8,015 nucleotides of DNA, from positions 1 to 8,015 of the forward strand of contig CAMLOC010000129.1 of the NCBI GenBank assembly GCA_946481465.1. Reading direction: 5' to 3'. This document shows positions 1,841-8,015 of the stretch, piece by piece. Source of the stretch: an uncultured Shinella sp. Lineage in GTDB: Bacteria > Pseudomonadota > Alphaproteobacteria > Rhizobiales > Rhizobiaceae. Position 1 is the first letter of the stretch. Every line of letters begins with the position of its first letter. A program made the translations under genes and the position numbers. Below the pieces are notes generated by a model. It did no database searches and was not told where the DNA came from. It saw nothing but the letters and a program-made list of their open reading frames with translations.

Positions 1841-1904
1841 CCGCCTTGCCCAAAGTCGCACGTGCCTGTGGGTGTCCGCCGACCCTCGAATTGGTGAGGA
1901 AATC

Positions 1905-2075
1905 GGTAAGGTACCTGGAATTAACCCCTCCAGTCGTTTCTCCGGCCAACCGGAAGAGCGAGGACATCTTGAAGCAACGACGGTGCGGGCCTTTCTGGTT
2001 CTCTGCCGGCTTTCCATCAGCCGGGGTTACTGAAGAGGCACACCATCATTGCCGGACGTGCGGTCGGGTTTTCCT
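1905..2075 (+). ncRNA. speF-type structured leader of the ornithine decarboxylase mRNA
   Basis: Alphaproteobacteria, mainly rhizobia, carry a conserved RNA element (the speF motif) upstream of ornithine decarboxylase genes; its position, length and sequence here agree with my memory of it. Visible structure: CTGGA (1915-1919) pairs with TCCAG (1929-1933). GTCGTT (1933-1938) pairs with AACGAC (1976-1981), enclosing a TCCGG/CCGGA hairpin with loop CCAA (1941-1954) and the unpaired-looking GGACATCTTGAAGC. CCGGCT (2006-2011) pairs with AGCCGG (2019-2024), and GGTG (1982-1985) can pair with CACC (2041-2044) around it. The bounds are approximate and ligand and mechanism are not established. Reading frames open through this segment look accidental. 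Confidence 0.7.
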
Positions 2076-2206
2076 ACCAATCCATGGCAGACAAAGCGGA
2101 TCAAAGCCTAGGCGGGCTTCGTTCCATCGTTCGCGCATCATGCGCATGCTCGGTTCCGGGGTCTCCACCGGCTGGTTCCAGGGCGTGTTCGCATATGTCC
2201 TTTGTC

Positions 2207-4711: not shown

Positions 4712-5878
4712 TCAGAACGAGCCGGCAAACCGAACCGCGAGGCCGTCGACCTTGAAGTCGGCGGCCTTGTCGTTTTCGCGGCGCACGAGACGGCTGTATT
4801 CCAAAGCCACCGTCGCGCCCTTGGGCAATGTATAGGCCAGCGTGGCGGCGAGTGATTTCGTGCGGGTGCGGTAGTCGTAGTAGAGCCAGTCGCTCTGGGC
4901 CTGCTCATAGGCGAGGGTGAGCTTCAGCTTCTCCGTAAGCGCCTTTTCCAGCGAGAGGCCGACGGTGCGCACGTCCTCTCCGAGCGGATCGTCGATATCG
5001 GCAAGCTGGATGTCGCGCGCGAGTTTCGCCTTCAGCACGGTGCCGTGCGGCAATTGCCAGGCCACCTCGCCCTTGAGGAAGGGGCGGGCGCGTTCCACGG
5101 TCGTGCCGAGATAGGGGCTGGCGATACCGACGACACCGGCCTCGGCCAGCAGGGTGATGCCGTTGGCGTAGACGCGGCCATAGGCGAGGGAACCGCGCAG
5201 CGTTTCGGCCGGAAAGCGCCCGAACGTCCTGCGCTCCGCGTCGCTGATGCGGCTTGCCCTGTATTGCAGCGTCGCACCCGCCTCGCCGCCGAGCAGCGGG
5301 CGGATGTGACCGCCGGTGACTTCGAGCAGGCCGTAGCCGGCTTCGAGCTGCGTGGGCTTCAGGCCGGCAAGGGTGAAATGCGCTTTGCCTCGATCGAGCT
5401 TCGAGATGGTCGTGGTCAGGTGGCTGCGGCCGCCCTGATGGTCCGCGGTCAGGCCGGCGCTCGCCGATGCGAAGACGTCGTCCTTGTGATAGCCGATCAA
5501 TGCGCCGGGCAAGGCGAGAAACAGGTCGCCGTTGCGCCGACGCTCGATGCCGCCCTTCAGCGTCAATTTCACCGCCCTGCCGAGATCATGGGTATAGCCG
5601 AGTTCCAGGCCGGCCGTGCGCTGGTCGGCGAAGCGATATTTCGCAATGCGCCGGGCGCTCGCGCTCAGCGCATAGGCCACCTGAGAGTCCTCCAGCGCCA
5701 GGCTGCCGCGCAAGGCGAGCTTCGCCTCGCTGAAAGAGGCCGGAAGGTCGCTCGTATCCTGAAAAATATTCGAGCTCCAGCCAGCGCCGATCTTGTAATC
5801 GAAGGTTGAATCGGCGTTTGCCGGGTTGTGCCAGGCCAGTATCGACGCCGCGCAAAAGAGGCTGCCAAGGAAGCGCAT
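4712..5878 (-). CDS. Outer-membrane beta-barrel protein
   Basis: The 388-residue protein begins with a signal peptide (MRFLGSLFCAASILAWHNPANA, likely cut after Ala22). The mature part is built of alternating polar/hydrophobic strands with turns, for example KIGAGWSSNIFQDT at 29-42, AGLELGYTHDLG at about 89-100 and TLAYEQAQSDWLYYD near the C-terminus. It ends with a strand closed by Phe (VDGLAVRFAGSF), the C-terminal signal read by the BAM complex. No plug, TonB box or TPR domain is seen, so it is most likely a simple barrel of roughly 14-18 strands; channel, adhesin or export roles are all open. ATG 5878 has AGGAG 9 bases upstream. It diverges from the small secreted protein gene at 6128, with which it may be co-regulated. 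I do not recognise a named family. Confidence 0.85.
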   Translation of the reverse strand: MRFLGSLFCAASILAWHNPANADSTFDYKIGAGWSSNIFQDTSDLPASFSEAKLALRGSLALEDSQVAYALSASARRIAKYRFADQRTAGLELGYTHDLGRAVKLTLKGGIERRRNGDLFLALPGALIGYHKDDVFASASAGLTADHQGGRSHLTTTISKLDRGKAHFTLAGLKPTQLEAGYGLLEVTGGHIRPLLGGEAGATLQYRASRISDAERRTFGRFPAETLRGSLAYGRVYANGITLLAEAGVVGIASPYLGTTVERARPFLKGEVAWQLPHGTVLKAKLARDIQLADIDDPLGEDVRTVGLSLEKALTEKLKLTLAYEQAQSDWLYYDYRTRTKSLAATLAYTLPKGATVALEYSRLVRRENDKAADFKVDGLAVRFAGSF

Positions 5879-5923
5879 CGGGTTCTGCTCCTGTCCGTTT
5901 CTGGAACAGAATCCTAGGGTTGC

Positions 5924-6031
5924 ATGGTTAAAAATTCCCTCAAAGGTTGATTTTCAACCAAGTTAGGCAATTTATGCTATCTGTAATTGTTATTGGTTGG
6001 GAATCGTTAAACTTGTCTACGTTATGGTTAA
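5924..6031 (-). promoter_or_regulatory. Two CtrA-like TTAACCAT boxes exactly 100 bases apart
   Basis: The 8-mer TTAACCAT, known as a CtrA half-site type in alphaproteobacteria, occurs on the minus strand at 5924-5931 and again at 6024-6031. The 100-base spacing is close to whole helical turns. A further TTAA lies at 6007-6010. No full TTAA-N7-TTAA site is present, so cell-cycle control is suggested but not established. Confidence 0.35.
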
Positions 6032-6081
6032 CTATTTGCTATGACTAGGGAATCCGGTTGAGTAAATCGATGCTTATATTA

Positions 6082-6118
6082 CCTTCGATTGTGCATCAGC
6101 AAGGTGCACAACCGAAGG
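6082..6118 (+). promoter_or_regulatory. Hairpin that covers the ribosome binding site of the small secreted protein
   Basis: CCTTCG (6082-6087) and TTGTGCA (6089-6095) pair with TGCACAA (6105-6111) and CGAAGG (6113-6118): 13 pairs, with a single A-C mismatch and the 9-base loop TCAGCAAGG. The 3' arm contains AAGG of the ribosome site AAGGAG (6115-6120), 7 bases before ATG 6128. The loop carries a second AAGG (6101-6104) that could compete for the CCTT arm. Melting or a bound factor could free the site, as in RNA thermometers and repressed leaders; it could also be a DNA operator. Confidence 0.55.
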
Positions 6119-6127
6119 AGAGAGAGC

Positions 6128-6418
6128 ATGAACAAGACCCGTATCATCGCCATCGCAACCGTCTTCGCAATCGCCGGTGCCGGCCAGGCCTCGGCCGGCG
6201 GCCTGCTCGGCGGCCTCGGCATCCTGAACAACAACAGGACGGGCGGCGTCGTGATCGCCCCGAGCGTCGGCGTCGGGGTCGGCAACATCCTCAGCGACAA
6301 TCACGGCAACAACGTGCTGAACGGCGTGCTCAACGGCACCCTGTCGGGCATCCTCAACGGCAACACGCTGGGGATTCTCGGCGGCAGCGACTGCGGCTGC
6401 AAGAAGCGCAAGCACTGA
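6128..6418 (+). CDS. Small secreted Gly/Asn/Leu-rich repeat protein
   Basis: This 96-residue protein starts with a clear Sec signal peptide (KTR basic start, hydrophobic 6-18, cut after ASA23), giving a mature protein of about 73 residues. The mature part is very rich in Gly, Asn, Leu and Val with almost no charge: GGLLGGLGILNNN (24-36), a Val/Gly stretch at 46-52, then four tetrapeptides VLNG, VLNG, TLSG, ILNG at 63-78 followed by NTLGILGG. It ends with CGC and a basic KKRKH tail (89-96). Such short repeats can stack as beta-strands in a solenoid or amyloid-like fold, as in secreted surface fibres; that is inference. No named family is recognised. ATG 6128 is chosen for AAGGAG 7 bases upstream and the signal peptide. 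The gene ends in front of a strong terminator. Confidence 0.85.
   Translation: MNKTRIIAIATVFAIAGAGQASAGGLLGGLGILNNNRTGGVVIAPSVGVGVGNILSDNHGNNVLNGVLNGTLSGILNGNTLGILGGSDCGCKKRKH
6314..6361 (+). repeat. Four 12-base coding repeats (V/T/I-L-N/S-G)
   Basis: Four consecutive 12-base units encode VLNG, VLNG, TLSG and ILNG. Units 1, 2 and 4 share CT[G/C]AACGGC, while unit 3 has drifted. This suggests expansion by tandem duplication followed by divergence under selection for the peptide pattern. Confidence 0.75.
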
Positions 6419-6451
6419 CCGCATCCATCCCCGCCCGTGCGGTCCGTGGGG

Positions 6452-6476
6452 CCCGGGAGAGCATCGCTCTCCCGGG
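6452..6476. terminator. Bidirectional terminator hairpin between convergent genes
   Basis: CCCGGGAGAGC (6452-6462) pairs perfectly with GCTCTCCCGGG (6466-6476) around the loop ATC, 11 pairs, followed by TCTTCCC. It lies 33 bases past the secreted-protein stop and 39 bases past the WD40 stop on the other strand, so it can serve both. The T-run is weak. Confidence 0.75.
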
Positions 6477-6515
6477 TCTTCCCGCGTTCAGGGGAGGCGG
6501 GCGACTGTGCCGCTT

Positions 6516-7505
6516 CTATCCTGCAAGATCGATGACGCCGCAATCGCCGGCTTCGCTGGCAAAAGCCAGAAGCTTTCCGTTCCGGCTCCAGGCCATCGCG
6601 GTGATCGCGCCCTTGCCGGGGCGGCGCAGCAGCACCTCGCGGCTGTCGGCGAACCTTGCGGCGAGCACCATGCCGTCGGAATAGCCGATGGCGACGACCT
6701 CTTCGGCGGGATGGCAGGCGACGGACGTCACCATCACGTCGGCGCGGGTGCCGAGTTCCAGCGGTGGCTTGCCCATCGGCCCGTCCTTGGCGGAGAACGG
6801 CCAGACGATCGCCGCCGGCGCGCCGGAGGAGGCGAGCCACTTGCCCTTCACCGACCAGGAGAGCGACTTCACCTTGGCCGGATAGCCGGTCATGCGCATG
6901 TGGCGGGTGTCCGCGCCGGGCTTGGTGTCGAGCTTCCAGCCGTGCAGGGCGTTTTCCTGCATGCTGGTGACGACGAAGCGGCCGTCCGGCGAGAAGGTGA
7001 TGCCGGTATGGGCGCCCTTCCATTCCAGGTCGACCGGCTGGCCGGCCATCGCCACCCAATGCAGAGAGGCGCCGTTGTAGCGCGCCACGCCGATGCGCAG
7101 GCCCTTCGGCGCGAAGGCGATGCCTTCCACCGAGCGGCTTTCGGCAAATTCCCTGATCGTGCCGTCGGCAAGGCGCACACGCGCCGTGCGACCTTCCGCG
7201 AAGCCGACCGCGCCCTGCGGCCCGGCGGCGACGACGGAAATCCACTTGCGCGGCACCTCGGCAAGAAGCGTCGCGGTGCCGTCGGCGGCGATGCGCTGTA
7301 CCTTGCCGTCCTCGCCGCCGGTGATCAGCGTATCGTTTGCCTCGTCGCGAATGCAGGCGAGCAGCCCGTCATGCGCCTCCGTGACCTTCTGGCCGTGATC
7401 GAGGCGGTGGATGGCGCCGGAGGCGGTGGCGAAGAACGGCACGTCGCCGAGAAAGGCGGCCGCGATGACGTGGCCGTCGAGATCAAGAGGAGCGACGGTC
7501 GGCAT
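6516..7505 (-). CDS. WD40 beta-propeller protein
   Basis: The 329-residue cytoplasmic protein (no signal peptide) is made of degenerate WD40-type repeats of about 40 residues. The clearest blades are ITFSPDGRFVVTSMQENALH with GWKL (169-192), IAFAPKGLRIGVARYNGASL with HW (129-150), LSWSVKGKWLASSG through WPF (215-237), VACHPAEEVVAIGYSDGMVL (262-281) and MAWSRNGKLLAFASEAGDCG (304-323), consistent with a single seven-bladed propeller. WD40 proteins act as binding platforms; the partner is unknown. The ATG at 7505 overlaps the stop of a 19-codon ORF (TGATG) and lies 58 bases behind the CobW-family gene, so it is probably translated by coupling within that operon; its own ribosome site is weak (GACGAGA). 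The context suggests a role beside the GTPase in metal handling. Confidence 0.88.
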   Translation of the reverse strand: MPTVAPLDLDGHVIAAAFLGDVPFFATASGAIHRLDHGQKVTEAHDGLLACIRDEANDTLITGGEDGKVQRIAADGTATLLAEVPRKWISVVAAGPQGAVGFAEGRTARVRLADGTIREFAESRSVEGIAFAPKGLRIGVARYNGASLHWVAMAGQPVDLEWKGAHTGITFSPDGRFVVTSMQENALHGWKLDTKPGADTRHMRMTGYPAKVKSLSWSVKGKWLASSGAPAAIVWPFSAKDGPMGKPPLELGTRADVMVTSVACHPAEEVVAIGYSDGMVLAARFADSREVLLRRPGKGAITAMAWSRNGKLLAFASEAGDCGVIDLAG

Positions 7506-7564
7506 CAGGTCTCGTCTTTCATGCGCAGGACGGTCTTCGGGCAGCGTTTCACATGTCCCGGCAT
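7505..7564 (-). CDS. 19-codon ORF bridging the CobW and WD40 genes
   Basis: The ORF reads MPGHVKRCPKTVLRMKDET. Its ATG (7564-7562) shares one base with the TGA of the CobW-family gene and its TGA (7507-7505) shares one base with the ATG of the WD40 gene, so both junctions are TGATG. It fills the whole gap exactly. It may be a short basic microprotein or simply a reading path that lets ribosomes move from one gene to the next. A GAGG lies about 12 bases upstream. No homologue is known to me. Confidence 0.4.
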   Translation of the reverse strand: MPGHVKRCPKTVLRMKDET

Positions 7565-8015
7565 CATGCCTGCTGCGCCTCGCAGGCCTTGAAGGTGCGC
7601 TCGATCTTCTCGCGGTCGAGGTCACGGCCGATGAAGACGAGGCGGCTTTCGCGCTTCTCGCCGTCCTTCCAGGCGCGCTGGTGGTCGCCCTCGACGATCA
7701 TGTGCACGCCCTGCACGACGTAGCGCTCGTCATCGCCGGCAAAGGCGATGATGCCCTTGAGACGCAGGATGTTCGGGCCGTCCGTCTGGGTGATCTTCTG
7801 GATCCAGGGGAAGAAACGGTCCGGGTTCATCTCGCCGCCGCGCAGCGAGATCGACTGCACCGTCACGTCATGGATCGGCGAGACGTCGTGGTCGTGGTGA
7901 TGGTGGCCATGGTCATGATCGTGGTGGTGATGGTCGTGATCATGATCATGGTGGTGTTGATCGTGGTCATGATGATGATGGTCATGGCCGCAATCGGGGC
8001 CGCAGACATGGTCCG
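7564..8015 (-). CDS. CobW-family (COG0523) GTPase, C-terminal part
   Basis: The last 149 residues are present and the N-terminal GTPase domain lies beyond the right edge. The visible part opens DHVCGPDCGHD, followed by a linker with 22 His and 9 Asp in 33 residues (7888-7986). Then comes the CobW C-terminal domain, beginning ISLRGGEMNPDRFFPWIQKI and continuing through NILRLKGIIAFAGDDERYVV, QGVHMIVEG and SRLVFIGRDLDREKIERTF. COG0523 proteins are GTP-driven metal chaperones or insertases for zinc, cobalt or others. The His/Asp linker and the CGPDC pair are typical metal-binding additions in zinc-linked members, but the metal cannot be decided here. The gene is first in the visible operon with the 19-codon ORF and the WD40 gene. 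Confidence 0.93.
   Translation of the reverse strand, partial: DHVCGPDCGHDHHHHDHDQHHHDHDHDHHHHDHDHGHHHHDHDVSPIHDVTVQSISLRGGEMNPDRFFPWIQKITQTDGPNILRLKGIIAFAGDDERYVVQGVHMIVEGDHQRAWKDGEKRESRLVFIGRDLDREKIERTFKACEAQQA
7888..7986 (-). repeat. His/Asp-coding low-complexity tract
   Basis: Thirty-three codons are made almost only of CAT/CAC and GAT/GAC, giving long GTG/ATG runs on the plus strand. Synonymous codons are mixed, so it is not a pure microsatellite, but tract length could still vary between strains by slippage in 3-base steps. It encodes the metal-binding linker of the CobW-family protein. Confidence 0.9.

Follow-up and report, generated by a model that had tools for sequence, protein, structure and literature searches.

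The inverted repeat in front of a small repeat-protein gene in the window (the whole stretch of 8,015 nucleotides from an uncultured Shinella sp. that was analysed here) is real and conserved, and in part misread if it is taken for a switch of the ribosome site. Comparison with homologous leaders suggests that a promoter and an inverted repeat probably share bases here; the inner half of the repeat would form a hairpin at the 5' end of the mRNA, perhaps as a stabiliser, and its ribosome-hiding arm would remain untranscribed. The original prediction held that this hairpin silences translation in the normal mRNA, and had named a transcription start inside the repeat as evidence against itself; the comparative geometry places the predicted start exactly there. 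The features referred to below are as follows.

4712-5878, minus strand: outer-membrane beta-barrel gene (Pfam BBP2_2), divergent from the small gene.
6007-6048, plus strand: AT-rich block with TTAAA, GTTA-N4-TAAC and TTT in rigid spacing, -85 to -44 of the predicted start.
6024-6031, minus strand: putative CtrA half-site TTAACCAT, identical to a half-site quoted in a passage of PMC3692519.
6058-6063, plus strand: predicted -35 element TTGAGT, its TTG found in 52 of 52 leaders at a fixed distance to the TA of the -10 element.
6080-6085, plus strand: predicted -10 element TACCTT (TA in 52 of 52 leaders, the sixth-base T in 50 of 52), its last four bases beginning the outer left arm.
6082-6090, plus strand: outer left arm, which can pair with the ribosome site and is predicted to be absent from the native mRNA.
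6091-6093, plus strand: predicted transcription start (+1 at about 6092), 7 nt past the last -10 base.
6091-6109, plus strand: 5'-terminal hairpin GUGCAUC-agcaa-GGUGCAC, predicted at -8.5 kcal/mol at 37 C.
6110-6118, plus strand: outer right arm, from the repeat search.
6115-6120, plus strand: ribosome-binding site AAGGAG.
6128-6418, plus strand: small protein gene (ATG at 6128; 96 amino acids with Gly/Asn/Leu-rich repeats).

The near-perfect inverted repeat that had been described at 6082-6118 is indeed present: two arms of 14 nt (6082-6095 and 6105-6118), 9 nt apart, are 93% complementary, with 13 of the 14 arm bases pairing. When 14-nt arms, a spacing of 3-12 nt and no more than a single mismatch are required, one such repeat occurs in the intergenic stretch 5879-6127 and in none of 1,000 dinucleotide shuffles of it; the whole window likewise holds one, and 0 of 30 shuffles do. 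In the predicted fold, 6082-6087 pairs with 6113-6118 and 6089-6097 with 6103-6111, giving a stem of 15 pairs (including one G-U) with one A-C mismatch and a 5-nt loop. The folding z-score of 6060-6180 is -2.19, 4 of 200 shuffles being equally stable. The overlap with the ribosome site also holds, since four of the six bases of AAGGAG (6115-6118) lie inside the 3' arm, 7 nt (6121-6127) before the ATG. The second AAGG that had been noted in the loop exists at 6101-6104, but both of its G residues are paired in the predicted fold. The hairpin region matched no Rfam family at gathering scores.

The 96-residue protein has an N-terminus that, judged by eye, is signal-peptide-like, i.e., resembles that of a secreted protein. 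It matched no Pfam or NCBIfam family and has 84 homologues at E ≤0.001 among 111 candidates; by source name most belong to Shinella, and the rest include Sinorhizobium sp. RAC02 and Agrobacterium rubi. A search of the Shinella literature on untranslated regions and hairpins led only to a paper on single-cell protein, and literature on stem-loops in relatives gave no title on the small-gene family among the matches listed. In all 24 loci from a genome scan (L001-L024) the beta-barrel gene is the divergent neighbour of the small gene, at 31-83% identity, and this conserved pairing suggests a shared function for the two proteins. Downstream of the small gene, at 6452-6476, lies a perfect 11-nt inverted repeat that is terminator-like but has too few T residues for the terminator scan.

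Besides these 24 loci, genus searches matched 18 of 21 genomes (Shinella member), 30 of 39 (Agrobacterium member) and 7 of 26 (Pararhizobium member), and a family sample matched 24 of 394 genomes, ten places of which were added to the loci. The 82 loci used, together with the window, gave 83 upstream regions, of which 52 are distinct over the last 75 nt: 20 Shinella-type, 9 Rhizobium-type and 23 Agrobacterium-type leaders, labels that we assigned from the sequences. Left out were L040, which duplicates the L001 locus from one and the same genome, and six weak homologues (L084-L089). The latter are more distant relatives of the small protein, of a GGLINVSPS type, with unrelated leaders. Within 160 nt, five of these six lack TTG-N19-TA altogether, and the one in L085 lies a mere 15 nt upstream of the ATG.

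TTG-N19-TA stands at a fixed place of the ungapped alignment in all 52 distinct leaders, compared to 360 of 10,400 mononucleotide shuffles at the same distance, a comparison to be read knowing that the pattern was picked after viewing the sequences and that the leaders are mutually related. The sixth base of the -10-like hexamer (-7) is T in all leaders except L080 and L081. The hexamers themselves vary (TACAGT 14, TACCTT 12, TATCCT 9, TACTGT 8, plus seven rarer forms), and neither the spacer from TTG to TA nor the stretch from TA to +1 has an invariant column in the 52 leaders. To judge from the alignment, a fixed TTG and TA around a free spacer is the pattern of a -35/-10 pair, i.e., promoter geometry. 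In the window the two hexamers are 16 nt apart and, with their key bases conserved, they have the arrangement of a sigma-70-type promoter, in which this spacing is 16-18 nt. Because the -10 element is placed at 6080-6085, the predicted +1 falls inside the inverted repeat, and we infer from this both the start itself and the absence of the outer left arm from the native mRNA. A scan of 5870-6520 for the E. coli consensus (9 of 12 bases) gave no promoter-like site, TTGAGT matching at 4 of 6 and TACCTT at 3 of 6 bases. Passages of PMC3616915 describe weak -10 conservation and a TTG-only class for Sinorhizobium promoters. With up to two mismatches, the promoter pattern occurs at one place in each of 8 genomes, adjoining the small gene (reversed-pattern control: 1 in 8), and it is therefore not a regulon marker. 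All 20 Shinella-type rows share a TTG/CAA at +1 or immediately before it, for which we found no explanation.

Stems with 5 or more pairs, at least 3 of them G-C, and a loop of 3-8 nt were sought in the leaders between -70 and a point about 13 nt ahead of the ATG. Such a stem starts between -3 and +3 of the predicted +1 in 49 of the 52 leaders and at exactly +1 in 38, and none starts at +3 or later over the scanned stretch. Stems starting upstream are scattered, no position before -3 being shared by more than 6 leaders. No 5-pair stem was found in L071, L080 and L081. The Agrobacterium-type stem, ACGCC-N4-GGCGT, is of unrelated sequence and sits in the same place; where the 5-pair stem is present (22 of 23 leaders) it ends 20-27 nt ahead of the ATG, the distance over all 49 leaders being 16-27 nt. 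In the 23 Agrobacterium-type leaders the hairpin at +1 excludes the ribosome site. As judged from these alignments, the place and structure of the hairpin at +1 are conserved and its sequence is not.

The original prediction had looked to the arms of homologues for compensatory changes, and such changes are present in a hairpin that is conserved. The inner five pairs reach 97.9% pairing among the 20 Shinella-type leaders, and their covariation score of 0.413 against 0.265 beats 500 of 500 shuffles, as expected of a structure kept by compensatory change, and the outer six pairs are 88.3% paired, with a score of 0.232 against 0.159 that 0 of 500 shuffles reach and that lies above every slid control; these shuffle counts are not corrected for kinship, which alone can yield such values, the backbone of the Shinella tree being open. 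Two of five shuffle measures do not set the inner stem apart (80 of 500 and 344 of 500). In the outer arm, the pair 7-35 gave a Fisher p of 0.019, uncorrected for relatedness; one outer pair reads CG in 8, UA in 7, UG in 2 and unpaired in 3 of the Shinella-type leaders, and L011 carries a double change from T-A to G-C.

The inner and outer parts of the stem differ in how they deviate from pairing. In the Shinella-type leaders the deviating cells of the inner five pairs comprise 11 G-U, 1 C-A and 1 other, and those of the outer seven pairs 8 G-U, 26 C-A and 1 other, 13 of the 26 C-A cells being at the pair that adjoins the inner stem; the four intervening pairs account for 4 G-U, 7 C-A and 2 other. 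Collapsed to distinct arm pairs, G-U versus C-A is 4 versus 1 for the inner and 7 versus 20 for the outer part. The inner stem of the Rhizobium-type leaders deviates by 0 G-U and 2 C-A. RNA stems tolerate G-U pairs and not C-A, and therefore the contrast is in keeping with an outer arm that stays out of the transcript, although as a signal of RNA versus DNA we consider it a modest one.

Folding predictions bear on the ribosome site directly. By our reading of the predicted folds, each of the 29 Shinella- and Rhizobium-type leaders pairs its -10 tract with the purine-rich region of the ribosome site, in changing registers, and in Shinella this tract co-varies. When the RNA starts at the predicted +1, the predicted unpaired fraction of AAGGAG in the window goes from 0.24 to 0.27, i.e., the site is hardly freed; the three group means go from 0.29 to 0.46, from 0.27 to 0.42 and from 0.33 to 0.37. 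A thermometer and an alternative fold onto the loop AAGG, both of which had been proposed, found no support. RNA thermometers pair the ribosome site, and a stem can likewise be drawn over the AAGG here; unlike in thermometers, however, folding at five temperatures predicts no opening between 20 and 50 C (exposure of AAGGAG 0.18 to 0.23 with the 5' end at 6060, and 0.25 to 0.27 with the 5' end at 6082), and there is no Rfam match. The absence of predicted opening leads us to set a thermometer aside. The proposed decoy AAGG occurs in the loop stretch of 6 of the 52 leaders, and CCUU forced onto it gives -2.5 versus -22.5 kcal/mol; with a fold predicted to be 20 kcal/mol worse and a motif that is not conserved, we reject it.

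That a longer or read-through transcript hides the ribosome site is possible, and this can be envisaged in two ways. The first is the switch as originally conceived, in which transcription comes from further upstream and the whole hairpin is in the mRNA, hiding AAGGAG until a factor opens it. The 15-pair stem does cover the ribosome site, the inner and outer arms both co-vary, and the upstream block could hold a promoter, with TTG at -79 in 32 of 52 leaders and TA...T at -55 in 27. Both key parts of this rival promoter, however, occur together in only 13 of 52 leaders (Shinella-type 0 of 20, Rhizobium-type 6 of 9, Agrobacterium-type 7 of 23), versus 50 of 52 for the main promoter (18 of 20, 9 of 9 and 23 of 23, respectively), and a promoter inside the AT-rich block was set aside on this count, surviving only as part of the switch. 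The switch also leaves the rigid TTG-N19-TA spacing unexplained, its ribosome-hiding hairpin was not found in the Agrobacterium-type leaders, and neither thermometer behaviour nor a conserved decoy accompanies it. We regard it as quite improbable.

The second way would keep the gene's own promoter in use and have longer transcripts from upstream fold the -10-derived arm onto AAGGAG and go untranslated, so that the same bases are a promoter in the DNA and a lock in the wrong RNA. This accounts for both the rigid promoter geometry and the covariation of the outer arm. In the sisters L009 and L011, compared by eye, all five stem differences keep or improve pairing. Against it, the upstream neighbour is divergent in 24 of 24 loci, so that co-directional read-through is not obvious, an arm of this kind is absent from the -10 element of the Agrobacterium-type leaders, and kinship alone can give the shuffle counts of the outer arm. 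A host gene with a -10 element that is at the same time an arm against the ribosome site, with only own-promoter transcripts translatable and longer ones locking themselves, is to our mind an unlikely arrangement. If it were true, the co-varying outer arm in Shinella would serve to keep the lock matched to the promoter. To our knowledge, such a built-in proof of transcript origin is known only from transposons. In the transposase leaders of IS10 and IS50 it is only the read-through RNA that hides the ribosome site, the inverted repeat spanning promoter and ribosome site and the native start omitting one arm. The geometry fits here, with a start that is predicted; in contrast to IS10 and IS50, this is a host gene without a transposon, and read-through is hypothetical. 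The 5'-UTR of the ISPpu9 transposase is similar in that a leader structure is predicted to cover the ribosome site, but there, according to passages of PMC8450116, the leader is long and mapped, and the proposal is that an antisense RNA opens the structure inside it.

A dyad that acts as a repressor site on the -10 element and +1, with an incidental RNA fold, seems very improbable. It would overlap -10 and +1, a common place for operators, and its outer pairs show C-A deviations with the freedom expected of a DNA site. However, the Shinella-type inner stem deviates by G-U rather than C-A (11 versus 1), and the Agrobacterium-type stem, of unrelated sequence, sits at the same place.

In the reading that we prefer, a promoter-embedded hairpin at the 5' end, the outer left arm would be the -10 element plus the bases up to +1 of a sigma-70-type promoter, and the inner part of the repeat (about 6091-6109) would form a hairpin at the very 5' end of the mRNA. 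The native transcript would start inside the repeat and miss the CCTT arm, and the hairpin would therefore leave AAGGAG unhidden. Such a paired 5' end would probably serve to retard decay, as it would hinder both the removal of pyrophosphate and the attack by RNase E that depends on the 5' end. In E. coli, a 5' hairpin impedes RppH and stabilises bla mRNA, as described in passages of PMC3997798, and by analogy mRNA stabilisation would be the most economical role of the stem. The stabilising 5'-terminal stem-loops of the ompA and papA type described there are similar in that a hairpin at the (here predicted) 5' end lies upstream of the ribosome site and precedes a gene for an envelope-related or secreted protein. 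Unlike in these examples, the start here is predicted, the stem sequence is replaced between groups and the repeat extends into the promoter.

If this is right, there is a gene family in the Rhizobiaceae with a hairpin tied to the first transcribed base, the sequence of which turns over and the place of which stays, and its leaders offer natural variants on which the protection of mRNA by its 5' end could be tested in alphaproteobacteria. The case would also show how, in raw sequence, a promoter can pass for a riboswitch when an inverted repeat overlaps it. Self-locking longer transcripts would be more novel, and if the outer arm is also selected, one short stretch would be a promoter in the DNA and a lock in a longer RNA.

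The AT-rich block at 6007-6048 is a probable activator site, and the gene would be driven by such a site near -60. In the ungapped alignment, columns -84, -82, -81, -70 to -68, -64 to -61, -57 and -56 are invariant in 52 of 52 leaders, among them TTAA at -64 and TT at -57/-56. Because the beta-barrel gene is the divergent neighbour in all 24 loci, the block may serve both genes. The putative CtrA half-site TTAACCAT (minus strand) is present in 27 of 52 leaders (Shinella-type 20 of 20, Rhizobium-type 7 of 9, Agrobacterium-type 0 of 23) and is close to Motif 2, TTTGTTAACCAT, as given in PMC3616915. Where the full CtrA site is TTAA-N7-TTAAC, the window has TTAA-N7-CTAT instead, and CtrA control of the small gene is only a lead.

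Elsewhere in the window, a gene with a His-rich stretch lies at 7564-8013 (minus strand), whose counterpart in L019 we take to be a CobW-like GTPase. The sole Rfam matches of the window at gathering scores are the alphaproteobacterial sRNA ar45 at 1848-1994 (plus strand, 165.2 bits) and the speF leader at 2004-2156 (plus strand, 107.6 bits), which stand in tandem and precede an ornithine/lysine decarboxylase-type gene.
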